A stretch of 57,615 nt of DNA from Gammaproteobacteria bacterium (GTDB taxonomy: Bacteria; Pseudomonadota; Gammaproteobacteria; Burkholderiales; Gallionellaceae). Each line of letters opens with the position of its first letter. The stretch's first letter is position 1. Under the pieces are notes generated by a model, which saw nothing but the letters and a program-made list of their open reading frames with translations, was not told the DNA's origin and made no database searches. The DNA is taken from NCBI GenBank assembly GCA_018820925.1, contig JAHJNJ010000031.1, positions 1 through 57,615 of the forward strand, in the 5' to 3' direction. Below are positions 12,448 through 18,124 of this stretch, one piece after another. The translations under genes and the position numbers were made by a program.

Positions 12448-12816
12448 TTAGTAGGCATGGTAAATAAAATTCGGCTGGATTGCCGTTATCGCTCCATTCG
12501 ATCCGGTCGCAAGACCTTGCAGTACGTCGATACCGGGATCACGCTCCAGTCGCATCTCATATTGCTCGTGCCCGAGCGAATTCACCCGCATCACACCATA
12601 TTGCGCAAAATATTTTCGAATCGCCGCCGTGCCGTCCCCGGATGCCTTGACGATATAGCTGCCGGGAACAGTCTGGCCCGCTTGCCCGCGCTCCTTGTAA
12701 ACCACTGCGGGCTTACCGGAAGCCAAAGCGGGCTGTTGTTTTTCTGCCCGGGAACAGGCAACCAGCGTCGTCAAAGACAACATGGCTGCCATGCCGATCA
12801 AGTGATTCGATCTCAC
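12448..12816 (-). CDS. Lipoprotein consisting of a standalone I9-type protease prodomain
   Basis: 122 residues from a GTG at 12814-12816, only 1 nt after the S8 protease stop, so translation is probably coupled. The N-terminal signal has a lipobox LVAC (Cys about 21). The rest (about 50-122) resembles the prodomain of the adjacent protease: IVKASGDGTAAIRKYFAQYGV matches its VLIKFKPG start region in layout, and the end AIQPNFIYHAY matches the protease's AQPNYIYHAL. The protein stops right there, without a catalytic domain. I9-type prodomains fold and inhibit subtilases, and their C-terminus sits in the active site. A membrane-anchored inhibitor or folding chaperone acting in trans is therefore a reasonable inference; no experiment is known to me. 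Confidence 0.7.
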   Translation of the reverse strand: MRSNHLIGMAAMLSLTTLVACSRAEKQQPALASGKPAVVYKERGQAGQTVPGSYIVKASGDGTAAIRKYFAQYGVMRVNSLGHEQYEMRLERDPGIDVLQGLATGSNGAITAIQPNFIYHAY

Positions 12817-12817
12817 A

Positions 12818-14656
12818 TCAATGTACCGTTACCGCAATCCCGGTTGGCGGGTTGATATAGGTCAGCGAACCCAGCGCATCCACGGCCTTGCCCGTGGTGG
12901 TCTTGCCGTTCAACGCGGCGATGGAATCGCCGCCGTTCCTGATGGCCGCTGCCACATCAGCGTAAGTGAATGATGGGTTATGCGCCCACACCAGCGCGGC
13001 GACACCCGCCACCTCGGGGGTGGCCATGGAGGTTCCGTTGGCGGTGTTGTAGCCGTTGGTGGTGTAGGTCAGCGTCGAGATCGTGAAATCAGTCAGCGTC
13101 ACGCCATAATTCTGCAAGGTGGCATTGGTGAGCAACCCGAAACCGATCGTGCACGTCGCACTGCGGCAGCCGTCGAGATAGAAGCCGCTATATGAGGGAA
13201 AATCAGTTACACCGTCATTCCAGCCCGCGAGTCCATAGGACCGGTCCGGAGATACGAACGGATCGCCTCCGGCATTACGATAATTCACCAGGAACCAATC
13301 GCCGGTAGTAATGTTGACCGATGCGGTGAAGCTCAGGGTGGCGACATCGACCCCATTCAGGTTGAAGTTCTTGTAGGCGCGGTCATCCGTGCTGGCGTTG
13401 TAGGTCGCCGTACCCCATGACGTACCCGGTACTTCAAGCCAGTTGTAAACCCCATAGGCATTCACTACCCAACCGCCGCCCGTACCCGCTGTCGTGCTGC
13501 TGTACGTCCAGCCAGCCGTGAAGGTGTCGGTTATCGTGCCGCTGGTGCCGGCCCAGGTGCTGTAAATGTTGGTGCCCGGCGCGCCCACATCGACGCTGGT
13601 CGAACCCCAGTTCGAAAAACCGGCCAGCGCATAGTTCTGGTCGAGTGCCGCAACGCAGATAAGGTTCGTCTGGGTGTAGTTGCACGGATAACTGGCGCTC
13701 GTTACATCATTGTCATTGCTCTCGTTACCCGCAGCCACCACGACCAAGACTCCTGCTGTCTGCGCATCAGTGATAGCCTGGATGAAGGTCGGGTCTTCGC
13801 TGCCACCCCCCAAACTCATATTGATCACCTTGGCGCCATTGGCTATGGCGTAGTCGATACCTTCGACGATGCTTGTCGTCGTGCCGGAACCGGTCGCTTC
13901 CAGCACGCGTACCGCCATGAGTTTCGCAGACCAGCACACGCCGACTCCGCCGACACTGTTCGCGGCAGCACCGATGATGCCGGCGACATGGGTGCCGTGA
14001 CCGTAACGATCCATCGGGTCGCTGTTGGGGCCGGTGGCGACATCGGCCGCAAAGTTCCGGCCATGCAGCGTGTCGGTGCCTGATAAATCCGTCCACATGT
14101 TCGCGGACAGATCCTCGGAGTTGTAGTTGATGCCGGTATCGACCACCGCGACCACGACCGAACTGCAATCGGTCTGCATGTCCCAGGCCGCTTCAAGGTT
14201 CATATCCCTGCCTGCGGTGCCCGTTGCCGGCACATAGCCTCCGGTGAGCATCGTCTGCCCGGTGTTCTTTGCGGCCCAGAGTTGACCGGCCGCGTATACC
14301 GGATCAGTTGGCACTGCCAGCGCATGGTAGATGTAGTTGGGCTGCGCATATTCCACGCCCGGGTCTCTGGACAGGTCGTTAACCGCCTGTTCCACACTTT
14401 GTCCGCGGATCAGTTTCGCAAGAATCACATCTTTCCTGCTTCCGACGGTTTGCATGGTGCTGGCACCATAAGCCCGGGCTGTCTGGCTGTGAGCTGTTGC
14501 GGCCACGCCGGGTTTGAATTTGATCAGCACCTGATCCTTGACGTATTGCGGTTGCTGGCTGGGTGCAGCAGATGCCGACGGACGGGCGAACGACGCTGCC
14601 TGCACAAACAACAGGCCAATGCCGGTCAGAAGCGAAACAAATATTGGTTTGTTCAT
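12818..14656 (-). CDS. Secreted S8 (subtilisin-like) serine protease
   Basis: 612 residues from the ATG at 14654-14656 (GGGA upstream; a TTG 7 codons earlier is less likely). Order: signal peptide (to about residue 25), I9/fervidolysin-type prodomain (about 35-113, ending AQPNYIYHA) and a catalytic domain with Asp173 (VVDTGIN), His223 (GHGTHVAG), oxyanion Asn311 (AAGNES) and Ser543 (GTSMATPEVAG). Between the PGTNIYSTW strand and the Ser motif about 170 residues are inserted (about 370-535); these look like a beta-rich domain with two Cys (GCRSATC). The C-terminal LTYINPPTGIAVTV may begin another beta module. Neighbours are two lipoproteins on the same strand, one of them a copy of the prodomain. 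Confidence 0.88.
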   Translation of the reverse strand: MNKPIFVSLLTGIGLLFVQAASFARPSASAAPSQQPQYVKDQVLIKFKPGVAATAHSQTARAYGASTMQTVGSRKDVILAKLIRGQSVEQAVNDLSRDPGVEYAQPNYIYHALAVPTDPVYAAGQLWAAKNTGQTMLTGGYVPATGTAGRDMNLEAAWDMQTDCSSVVVAVVDTGINYNSEDLSANMWTDLSGTDTLHGRNFAADVATGPNSDPMDRYGHGTHVAGIIGAAANSVGGVGVCWSAKLMAVRVLEATGSGTTTSIVEGIDYAIANGAKVINMSLGGGSEDPTFIQAITDAQTAGVLVVVAAGNESNDNDVTSASYPCNYTQTNLICVAALDQNYALAGFSNWGSTSVDVGAPGTNIYSTWAGTSGTITDTFTAGWTYSSTTAGTGGGWVVNAYGVYNWLEVPGTSWGTATYNASTDDRAYKNFNLNGVDVATLSFTASVNITTGDWFLVNYRNAGGDPFVSPDRSYGLAGWNDGVTDFPSYSGFYLDGCRSATCTIGFGLLTNATLQNYGVTLTDFTISTLTYTTNGYNTANGTSMATPEVAGVAALVWAHNPSFTYADVAAAIRNGGDSIAALNGKTTTGKAVDALGSLTYINPPTGIAVTVH

Positions 14657-15172: not shown

Positions 15173-16183
15173 TCACTTCGATTCATCGAACAGGATTTCC
15201 AGCCGCATGCTTAACAACGGGCTGGCCCGGAAATTCCGTTCCCGCGGAAAGTGCAATTGCGGGCTGACATCGAAATACATCCATTCCCGGTGCAAACGGT
15301 AGCGGTAAGACATGAGCAGAACATAGTCCATCACTTGCACCTGCGGTCTGCTCACGCCGATCACGCTCGCCTGGTACAACAGGGCGGTCCGCTCATCCAA
15401 CTGGTGAAAAACCGTCAAATCCTGGCGCATATCGAAGTTCTGCGTCTCATGCAGCCAGGTGGCATTGCTGGTAGCGCGCAGCAGTACGGTTTCGCTGAGC
15501 GTGCGTTCGAAGTCCAGCTGTGTGGTTTCACCCGTACCGATGCTGTTGAACCAGAAAACGGTCTCTGCCAGCTTCGCCCGCCACTCTCCCATCGGGGCCT
15601 CCAGGCTGGCCCTGGTACGCACAAAAGGCTCTGTTTTGATGCCCCGAAATTTAAGCCCGGCATCCGCACTGAGATGCCAACGCTCCGCTTCCGCTTTCAC
15701 GTAGCGCAACGCTGCCGCGAGCCCCTGGGGAGTGGCCTGTTGCGTGGGCGTCTGCGGCTGCAACTGGGTCTGCTTCGAGTCCGTGACTGTATTCTGTTCC
15801 GGGTCTGTCTCGATCAGCAAATGCAGTTTCTGCTCGGCAATGGGCAAACGCACGTTGGCTCTGGCCGACAGCACAAACCGGTGCTCCCCGGTGTAGCCGA
15901 ACATCCTGACAACATCCAGCTGGAGCACACTGTCGTTCGCCTCCTGGTAATGCCGGTCATCGCCAAAAAACCGGTCAACGCCGCTCACAAAGTTGACAAA
16001 CTTTTCGGACACGTAATCGCGCGGCTTATCCAGCGCATTCATCATCTCGACGACGATGGAAGGGGGTAGGGGCGGGCCGACGAATTCTTCGCCGTATGCA
16101 AGCAGCGGAACCAGGAAGGCCGCGCACAATGACAGGCGCGCAGTTAATCCGAAAAATAATGCGGATCGCAACACCATGCGCAT
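15173..16183 (-). CDS. Outer-membrane beta-barrel protein, function unknown
   Basis: 336 residues with an N-terminal signal peptide (about 1-31, ending LLAYG). The mature chain has amphipathic strands such as RFVLSARANVRLPI, HLSADAGLKFRG and TQLDFERTLSETVLLRATSNATW, and ends SPLLSMRLEILFDESK. A low-complexity Gln/Thr stretch (QLQPQTPTQQATPQ, about 145-158) forms a loop or linker. I do not recognise the family. Its ATG overlaps the cysM stop (TGATG at 16181-16185), so the two are translationally coupled. Why a cysteine synthase should be coupled to an envelope protein is unexplained. A promoter for the lipoprotein-protease genes downstream could lie in 15016-15172. Confidence 0.6.
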   Translation of the reverse strand: MRMVLRSALFFGLTARLSLCAAFLVPLLAYGEEFVGPPLPPSIVVEMMNALDKPRDYVSEKFVNFVSGVDRFFGDDRHYQEANDSVLQLDVVRMFGYTGEHRFVLSARANVRLPIAEQKLHLLIETDPEQNTVTDSKQTQLQPQTPTQQATPQGLAAALRYVKAEAERWHLSADAGLKFRGIKTEPFVRTRASLEAPMGEWRAKLAETVFWFNSIGTGETTQLDFERTLSETVLLRATSNATWLHETQNFDMRQDLTVFHQLDERTALLYQASVIGVSRPQVQVMDYVLLMSYRYRLHREWMYFDVSPQLHFPRERNFRASPLLSMRLEILFDESK

Positions 16184-17070
16184 CAGGCGGGGAACACCCC
16201 GGTGGAAAGGTAACGGTCGCCCCGGTCGCAGACGATGAACACGATGGTTGCGTCCCGGACTTGCCGCGAGATGCGCAGGGCCACGCTCAAGGCGCCGCCG
16301 GAGGAAATGCCGCAGAAAATGCCTTCTTCGCTCGCCAGGCGCCGCGTCATGTCTTCGGCCTCTTTTTGCCCGACATTCACCAGCAAGTCGACGTTCTTCG
16401 GGTCATATATCTTCGGCAGGTATTCCTCCGGCCATTTGCGGATACCCGGAATCTGCGCGCCCTCTTCCGGTTGCGCGCCGATGATCTGGATGCCGGGATT
16501 CATTTCCCTGAAGTAACGCGAGCAGCCCATGATGGTGCCGGTGGTGCCCATGCTGCTCACGAAATGCGTGATCCCGCCCTGTGTGTCGCGCCATATCTCC
16601 GGCGCCGTGCCTTCGTAATGCGCCAGCGGATTGTCAGGATTCGCGAACTGGTCGAGAATGATGCCGCGCCCCTCGTCGCGCAATTTCTCTGCCGTATCGC
16701 GCGCCAACTCCATGCTGCCGGCCTTCGGCGTGAGCACCAGTTCTGCACCGAAGGCGCGCATGGTCTGGCGGCGCTCCACGCTCTGGTTCTCGGGCATCAC
16801 CAGGATCATCCTGTAGCCGCGCATCGCGGCCGCCATCGCCAGCGCGATACCGGTGTTGCCGCTGGTCGCCTCGATCAGTGTGTCGCCGGGCTTGATGTCG
16901 CCGCGTTCTTCGGCGCGGCGGATCATGGAAAGCGCCGGACGGTCTTTTACCGAACCGGCGGGGTTGTTTCCTTCCAGTTTCGCGAGAATGACATTGGTTG
17001 TATCGCCCGGAATGCGCTTGAGTCTGACCAGCGGCGTGTTGCCGACGTAATCGTCCAGAGTCTTGTACAT
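16183..17070 (-). CDS. cysM: Cysteine synthase B
   Basis: 295 residues, a PLP enzyme of the O-acetylserine sulfhydrylase family. The PLP Lys is K42 in NNPAGSVKDRPA; the phosphate/substrate loop is [12 protein letters not shown]; and GISSGGALSVALR lies near the C-terminus. The short length and RRQTMRAFGAELVLT segment fit CysM rather than CysK. CysM makes cysteine from O-acetylserine with sulfide or thiosulfate. cysK lies upstream on the same strand but a strong terminator separates them, so each may be expressed independently. The stop overlaps the start of the outer-membrane protein gene downstream. Confidence 0.9.
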   Translation of the reverse strand: MYKTLDDYVGNTPLVRLKRIPGDTTNVILAKLEGNNPAGSVKDRPALSMIRRAEERGDIKPGDTLIEATSGNTGIALAMAAAMRGYRMILVMPENQSVERRQTMRAFGAELVLTPKAGSMELARDTAEKLRDEGRGIILDQFANPDNPLAHYEGTAPEIWRDTQGGITHFVSSMGTTGTIMGCSRYFREMNPGIQIIGAQPEEGAQIPGIRKWPEEYLPKIYDPKNVDLLVNVGQKEAEDMTRRLASEEGIFCGISSGGALSVALRISRQVRDATIVFIVCDRGDRYLSTGVFPA

Positions 17071-17083
17071 GCTCAGTCCCGCA

Positions 17084-17124
17084 AAAAGGTAACGCCAGCA
17101 TGATAAATGCTGGCGTTACCTTTT
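17084..17124 (-). terminator. Strong terminator between cysK and cysM
   Basis: A perfect 17-bp inverted repeat (AAAAGGTAACGCCAGCA, 17084-17100, with its complement at 17108-17124) with a 7-nt loop, ending in a T run in the direction of cysK transcription. It lies 26 bp after the cysK stop and 14 bp before the cysM start. Confidence 0.85.
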
Positions 17125-17149
17125 GCACTTCAAAATCCAGAATCCGCTT

Positions 17150-18124
17150 CTAGATGGCCAAACCCGACGCGTCGAATAGTCCCTCAAACAGGACGGAACT
17201 GAGATAACGTTCCCCCGAATCCGGCAGGATCACCACGATGGTCTTGCCCGCATTTTCCGGCTTCTTTGCCAGACGCACCGCAACCGCCACGGCCGCCCCG
17301 CTGGAGATGCCGGAGATGATGCCTTCCTCTCGCGCCAGACGCAGCGCATACAGCACCGCATCTTCATTGCTCACTTGCTCGATGTCGTCCACCAGCGACA
17401 GATCCAGGACGCCCGGCACGAAGCCTGCGCCTATGCCCTGTATTTTGTGCGGCCCCGGTTTGAGTTCCTGGCCCGCGCGTTGCTGCGTCAGCACGGGACT
17501 GGCGGAAGGCTCAACCGCCACCGACCTGATTGCCTTGCCGCGTATTTTCTTGATGTAGCGCGACACGCCGGTGATGGTGCCGCCCGTGCCCACGCCGGAA
17601 ATAAAGATGTCGACCTTGCCGTCGGTGTCGTTCCAGATTTCCGGGCCGGTGGTCTTTTCATGGATAGCCGGATTGGCCGGATTCTCGAACTGCTGCAGCA
17701 GCACGTACTTTGAATCGGAGGCCGCGATTTCCTTGGCTTTGGCAATCGCACCGCTCATGCCTTTCGCGCCTTCGGTCAGCACCAGTTTCGCACCGTAACC
17801 AACCAGCAGCTTGCGCCGCTCGACACTCATGGTTTCGGGCATGGTCAGCGTGAGCGGGATGCCGCGCGCCGCCGCGACAAAGGCCAGCGCGATACCGGTG
17901 TTGCCGCTGGTGGGTTCGACGATCTCCTTGCCCGGCCCGAGCAAACCCTTCTTCGTGGCATCGTCAATCATCGCCACGCCGATGCGGTCTTTCACCGAAT
18001 ACGCCGGATTGCGGCCTTCGATCTTGGCCAGGATGACGGCGTGTGCTCCGTCGGCGATGCGGTTCAGTTTCACGAGCGGCGTATTGCCGATGGACAGCGA
18101 ATTATCTGCAAACTGGTTGGCCAT
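17150..18124 (-). CDS. cysK: Cysteine synthase A
   Basis: 324 residues, PLP-dependent O-acetylserine sulfhydrylase. K45 in [12 protein letters not shown] binds [15 protein letters not shown] is the asparagine/substrate loop. The [15 protein letters not shown] glycine-rich phosphate-binding loop and [15 protein letters not shown] follow. The C-terminal [13 protein letters not shown] is in the position where CysK-type enzymes differ from CysM. It catalyses cysteine formation from O-acetylserine and sulfide in the cytoplasm. The ribosome site AGGTAGAGAG precedes the ATG. There is a 121-bp gap to the next gene upstream, which should hold its promoter. Confidence 0.92.

Follow-up and report, generated by a model that had tools for sequence, protein, structure and literature searches.

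A prodomain-like lipoprotein gene behind a subtilase gene

The window, i.e. the whole stretch of DNA analysed here, comprises 57,615 nucleotides (nt) of contig JAHJNJ010000031.1 from a soil or water bacterium of the Gallionellaceae, the 3.44 Mb genome of which (G000; G and L numbers are our handles for genomes and loci) is assembled in 52 contigs. Its minus strand carries a three-gene cassette encoding a Gly-rich fn3-like lipoprotein, an S8 protease (subtilase) and a small lipoprotein that resembles the prodomain of this protease and is the subject of the present analysis. The features are as follows (sizes in amino acids, aa).

12448-12816, minus strand: standalone prodomain-like lipoprotein, 122 aa, GTG start
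within 12448-12816, minus strand: signal peptide and lipobox LVAC (Cys21), then a linker as far as residue ~47, a prodomain-like domain (residues ~48-118) and the tail YHAY (residues 119-122)
12448-12450, minus strand: stop codon of the lipoprotein gene
12451-12462, minus strand: C-terminal YHAY of the lipoprotein; by the prodomain register Tyr119 is P4 and Tyr122 is P1
12817, minus strand: single base separating the protease stop codon from the lipoprotein start codon
12818-14656, minus strand: S8 protease precursor, 612 aa, ATG start, triad Asp173, His220, Ser543
14318-14545, minus strand: the protease's own prodomain, residues 38-113, ending in YHAL (boundaries set by hand)
14674 to about 15057, minus strand: small Gly-rich fn3-like lipoprotein, gene 1 of the cassette (start position uncertain)

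The first-pass annotation had described an S8 protease with its own prodomain, followed 1 nt later by the gene for a lipoprotein with the lipobox LVAC and the C-terminus AIQPNFIYHAY directly before the stop codon, and all of this is confirmed in the sequence. The GTG start of the lipoprotein gene is aligned with the ATG of its nearest homologue, and Asp173, His220 and Ser543 are invariant across ten aligned proteases. The prodomain of the protease terminates in YAQPNYIYHAL, followed by AVPTDP, and matches the Pfam family PF22148 (Fervidolysin_NPro-like) over residues 26-107 (E = 6e-14). The same family was matched by all 11 prodomains examined, i.e. those of proteases for which the N-terminus was available. 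The earlier mention of the I9 type is corrected accordingly; the Pfam model Inhibitor_I9 (PF05922) found no match in the source genome at E-values up to 0.001.

Relationship of the lipoprotein to the prodomain

No convincing Pfam family was found for the source lipoprotein or for 16 aligned members of its family; PF05922 matched none of these at E-values up to 1, and PF22148 matched 0 of the 16 at the same threshold. The best NCBIfam hit, to a sec-independent translocase model in one of the 16 members (E = 0.00084), was judged to be due to chance. A search of the PDB sequences with the lipoprotein profile gave a best E-value of 0.063 (Alkaline protease 1, 8u45), and no match was found in PHROGs, searched with the source lipoprotein only.

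When protease and lipoprotein were compared by BLASTP, they aligned by way of the PN-IYHA stretch (E = 1e-4 over 38 columns, 14 of them one gap). Profile-profile alignment (hhalign) of the 16 lipoproteins, comprising 11 S8-linked members and five of 13 copies from a hemY locus (see below), with 11 prodomains extended over 76 columns, beginning at the first strand and reaching the final residue (probability 97.2, E = 4e-11). The prodomain stretches had been cut at the expected P1 residue, so that the common end is in part a product of this cut, but the collinearity is not. The prodomain profile was also matched by the hemY-locus copies alone (probability 95.5, E = 1.4e-8) and by the five S8-linked members from Gallionellaceae alone (probability 92.3, E = 5.5e-7, 55 columns). 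Against the relationship stands a control profile of fn3-like lipoproteins, which also gave a match (probability 88.9, E = 2.4e-6) in an alignment running from the signal peptide on; the profile-profile E-values are therefore not to be taken strictly. The prodomain stretches, for their part, contain no signal peptide. When the source lipoprotein domain was aligned locally with its own prodomain, the score (z = 6.3) was attained by none of 500 shuffled sequences. Of eight such lipoprotein/own-prodomain pairs, five had a score that none of 500 shuffles attained; in the remaining three, 1, 7 and 16 of the 500 shuffles did so. A chance likeness of the C-terminal motif was rejected on the profile-profile and shuffle scores, and as judged from sequence the lipoprotein is a divergent relative of the protease prodomain.

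The AlphaFold2 model of the lipoprotein monomer displays a prodomain-like predicted fold, in line with what the first-pass annotation had anticipated, but this evidence is weak, as the fold is common to RRM and other domains. RRM domains head both structure-search lists and no Foldseek match reached an E-value of 0.001, which speaks against the relationship; other prodomains were not among the matches listed, and this is not evidence against a prodomain fold.

The register of the C-terminus was derived from an alignment of the protease prodomain to the subtilisin BPN' prosegment, a weak one (E = 0.17-0.2), in which YIYHA falls on HVAHA. P1 would therefore be the residue that follows, i.e. Leu113 of the protease and Tyr122 of the lipoprotein, and P4 would be Tyr119. 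A C-terminus in the P4-P1 register is supported by the alignment of the lipoprotein with the prodomain, and seven of the 11 S8-linked lipoproteins stop exactly at P1 (G000, G149, G073, G069, G728, G588 and G852). The lipobox Cys is invariant in all 16 aligned members (signal peptide and lipobox read by eye); Gln114, Pro115 and Asn116 are conserved in 15 members each, and Tyr119 in 13 members. In the BPN' propeptide, Glu69 and Asp71 cap protease helices (PMC6993865; this and the other papers are cited here for their accessible portions), and by the weak BPN' alignment these two residues correspond to the Gln and Asn of QPN. Because of this correspondence, the QPN region, the best-kept part of the lipoprotein after Cys21, Tyr54 and Asp93-Gly95, is presumed to contact the protease.

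A tree was built from 29 domains (11 S8-linked lipoproteins, seven of the 13 hemY copies and 11 prodomains; 79 columns) and split prodomains from lipoproteins with support of 100/99. The hemY copies formed one clade (99/95) beside the S8-linked copy of G180 (81/97). Long branches, that of G578 foremost, drew a warning from the tree program, so that false joins are possible; G578 was included, and the root serves for drawing only. Several lipoproteins, the source one included, score higher against the prodomain of another genome than against their own. Recent copying of the neighbour's prodomain was rejected on these two observations: the lipoprotein had been called a copy of the protease prodomain, and of this description the homology stands, but a recent origin from the neighbour does not appear likely. 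Since lipoproteins and prodomains separate so clearly in the tree, the lipoprotein looks old, and the most economical account is that it arose once, long ago, stayed next to the protease and moved a single time to the hemY locus.

For the genome pair G000/G149, the lipoprotein shows a ratio of nonsynonymous to synonymous substitution rates (dN/dS) of 0.179 and the protease one of 0.18 (rough values, dS being >1), and the identity is 73% for the lipoprotein domain and 63% for the protease's own prodomain. In five of six lipoprotein pairs dN/dS is 0.18-0.28; the sixth gave 0.64 with very few changes. These values support purifying selection on the lipoprotein.

Distribution and genomic linkage

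The family was searched for with models and cut-offs that differed between searches, order, class and phylum being represented by samples. Positive genomes numbered 17 of 158 in the family, 4 of 399 in the order, 6 of 369 in the class and 4 of 398 in the phylum. Two of the last, G1093 (model positions 10-82) and G1017 (8-84), were dropped as false by eye, being unlike the lipoproteins. Three small families (2 of 2, 1 of 3 and 1 of 4 genomes positive) added nothing new, and a scan of genome contigs gave four loci, all of which had been found before. A scan of viral contigs produced 49 pattern matches, none of which was confirmed, and tblastn against plasmids gave no match.

The S8-linked copies were picked up by sequence, not by position. 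All 11 members outside the hemY locus lie directly behind an S8 gene, with gaps of -4 to +9 nt (G000 +1, G149 +1, G141 -1, G073 +1, G069 +4, G180 +8, G782 -4, G728 -4, G578 +9, G588 -4 and G852 -4), which bears out the tight gene coupling proposed earlier. The genome search for the same gene pair, likewise proposed, thus yielded 11 genomes from six GTDB families, along with 13 further copies that are orphans at the hemY locus. The named relatives bearing the pair are three Sideroxydans and one Gallionella. In G588 (locus L123) the assembly shows the paired S8 gene broken into two reading frames, through either a true frameshift or a sequencing error.

A class-wide search with the protease profile (E up to 1e-60) gave matches in 29 of 303 genomes, most of them other S8 types matched in the catalytic part only. 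Eight matches exceeded 400 bits and are of the full-length type; the lipoprotein gene lies behind three of these (G000, G782 and G728) and is absent behind the other five (G811, G544, G697, G701 and G663). The proteases of G578 and G588 were matched in pieces, and both have the lipoprotein behind them. No further prodomain-like lipoprotein was seen behind the weaker S8 matches, for which no firm count is given: among the 29 loci, five lack a full S8 by pattern, five have no base behind it and several have a few dozen to a few hundred bases. The S8 proteases of G697 and G663 (L094 and L096) end instead in a Gly-rich, hydrophobic and basic (Arg-rich) tail, which we take to resemble a GlyGly-CTERM sorting signal. 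At L101, L102 and L103 (G564, G818 and G711), S8 proteases of another kind are followed directly by a different small predicted lipoprotein of ~95 aa, which by eye lacks a prodomain motif; the two may form another, unrelated protease-lipoprotein pair.

A gene for an fn3-like lipoprotein lies upstream of S8 in each of the 12 examined loci whose upstream sequence is complete; nine of these have the prodomain-like lipoprotein downstream and three do not (G811, G544 and G701). The relatives of this Gly-rich lipoprotein have weak, sub-threshold fn3 matches. This upstream lipoprotein, which has no name, accompanies the protease more constantly than does the prodomain-like lipoprotein, an optional third member of the cassette. 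Upstream of the cassette, two adjoining genes on the minus strand (window positions 16183-18124) are both cysteine synthase-like (by eye).

In 13 genomes, i.e. 12 others and G000 with a second copy, a copy of the lipoprotein gene occupies the same conserved position downstream of a hemC/hemX/hemY cluster. The hemC motif is present at 12 of these 13 loci, the thirteenth contig being short, and Pfam names were looked up for three loci, L031, L035 and L002. The copy of the source genome is the following.

L031 6060-6446 (contig C50): orphan copy of G000 at the hemC/hemX/hemY locus, no adjacent S8

Five of the 13 genomes gave no S8 match: G123, G124, G135 and G145, which are at least 92% complete, and G143 (69%). 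Directly behind the orphan, L031 6496-7065 encodes DUF4124 and a retropepsin-like aspartic protease (PF13975); similar genes, identified by motif, are also present in L038, L039, L042 and L043.

Proposed function and comparison with known systems

With moderate confidence, we propose that the lipoprotein is a membrane-tethered, trans-acting, product-like inhibitor of the subtilase encoded by the gene just before it. Subtilase propeptides inhibit tightly after cleavage and their tails bind in a product-like manner (PMC10580911, PMC6993865). The lipoprotein would be exported and lipidated, probably to the outer membrane, since none of the 16 aligned lipoproteins has Asp at position +2 (by eye). 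Its domain would dock on the protease in the place vacated by the cleaved prodomain, and YHAY would enter S4-S1 like a cleavage product. A protease activated prematurely, or one lingering in the periplasm or at the cell surface, would in this way be kept from attacking the cell. Coupled translation would supply the inhibitor in step with the protease, which might be released when it leaves the envelope or when the inhibitor is degraded.

Several observations weigh against inhibition of this kind. Four of the 11 S8-linked lipoproteins overrun P1 (G141 by 8, G180 by 6, G782 by 9 and G578 by 3 residues), the P1 residue is variable in the 11 linked members (Y, Y, M, N, F, N, N, N, M, K, Q), and the last two residues of the source lipoprotein have a predicted local distance difference test (pLDDT) score of 60 in the monomer model. 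The five full-length proteases that lack the lipoprotein and the five hemY-copy genomes that lack an S8 match count likewise. Promoter and terminator scans gave chance level only, and co-transcription therefore rests on gene spacing.

An adaptor or scaffold, in which the domain together with the fn3-like lipoprotein would hold the protease on the outer membrane and leave its activity unblocked, could account for a protease gene flanked by two lipoprotein genes, and the tails of the G697 and G663 proteases are a possible alternative anchor. We regard it as unlikely, as a mere tether would not need a tail that ends in or near the P1 register with Tyr at P4, and G811, G544 and G701 lack both the lipoprotein and a tail of this sort. 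A distinctly unlikely account is that of a trans-acting, membrane-bound foldase that, like the lipase-specific foldase Lif, a membrane-bound steric chaperone (PMC3352829, PMC7046727), aids folding of the protease in the envelope and exerts no restraint. Prodomains do act as chaperones as well as inhibitors, the gene lies directly behind its client and a lipobox is present; however, all 11 prodomains examined match PF22148, so that a second chaperone is not obviously needed, and five close relatives of the protease manage without the lipoprotein. The first-pass annotation had allowed for either an inhibitor or a chaperone. The lipoprotein is not an obligatory chaperone, since related proteases exist without it, and lasting restraint by an inhibitor explains it better than folding does, because the protease keeps its own prodomain. 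That the lipoprotein shields the cell against subtilases of competitors or predators, its link to the own protease reflecting protection from the own product, would suit the 13 orphans and the four nearly complete genomes without S8 (G123, G124, G135 and G145), but we consider it very improbable: all 11 other members adjoin an S8, and the seven orphans in the tree make up a single clade within the family and speak for a side branch only. A decaying duplicate without function, to which the low identity of the S8-linked members to the source lipoprotein (24-63%) might point, is hardly credible and was rejected on the dN/dS values, five of the six being low, and the lipobox Cys and the QPN motif are kept over several families.

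The earlier interpretation is partly supported overall, and the observation underlying it is confirmed. More tentatively, the lipoproteins may constitute an unnamed bacterial outer-membrane family that originated a single time from a captured subtilase prodomain and acts on the co-made protease as a tethered inhibitor with a product-like end; one Sideroxydans branch would have escaped to the hemY locus and persist in genomes without S8, as a shield against foreign proteases or in a new role. Gram-negative bacteria must keep exported broad proteases off their own envelope, and a prodomain turned into a separate lipoprotein would, if the proposal is true, be a simple and genetically tractable answer to envelope self-cutting. 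A small soluble domain and its cognate protease make inhibition directly testable, and the orphan copies are a natural experiment on what becomes of an inhibitor after the loss of its target.

The PF22148 prodomains are collinear homologues of the lipoprotein domain, but they are part of the protease precursor, and the lipoproteins miss their model. Stand-alone propeptide-like inhibitors include Pleurotus proteinase A inhibitor 1, yeast proteinase B inhibitor, Arabidopsis SPI-1, TgMIC5 and SUB1-ProM (PMC6993865). Like our lipoprotein, the stand-alone inhibitors of the MEROPS I9 type are small separate gene products with a propeptide fold, which in ours is predicted, and SUB1-ProM adjoins subtilase genes, one product of which it inhibits. 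The I9-type inhibitors named in the accessible portion of PMC6993865 are, however, eukaryotic and are not called lipoproteins there, whereas ours is bacterial, has a lipobox and is encoded one base behind the protease gene. As the PF05922 model does not match its sequence, we do not file it as an I9 member.

The potempins of Tannerella forsythia probably have a different fold from our lipoprotein. They are small lipoproteins encoded in an operon with a secreted protease, which they are stated (data to be published) to inhibit (PMC7296668, PMC4404884). Compared by description, they are encoded in front of the protease, by open reading frames without mutual similarity, and are not described in those portions as prodomain-derived, whereas our gene lies behind the protease. 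The genes for SpeB-Spi, the staphostatins and the Bacteroides C10 inhibitors are contiguous and co-transcribed with the protease gene, and some of the Bacteroides ones are predicted lipoproteins (PMC3462683), but their targets are cysteine proteases and they are staphostatin-like, mainly beta proteins. Lif, described as membrane-bound, is the partner of a secreted enzyme, as our lipoprotein would be, and is grouped with the propeptide steric chaperones, but its client requires Lif to fold, whereas the client here has its own prodomain. Both halves of the arrangement are known separately. Their combination, a prodomain relative made as a bacterial lipoprotein coupled to its subtilase, appears to be new, solely on the basis that our literature searches, for which most subscription papers were outside reach, found no bacterial lipoprotein derived from a subtilase prodomain. 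If the proposal is true, it extends to bacteria a design that the cited papers report for eukaryotes.
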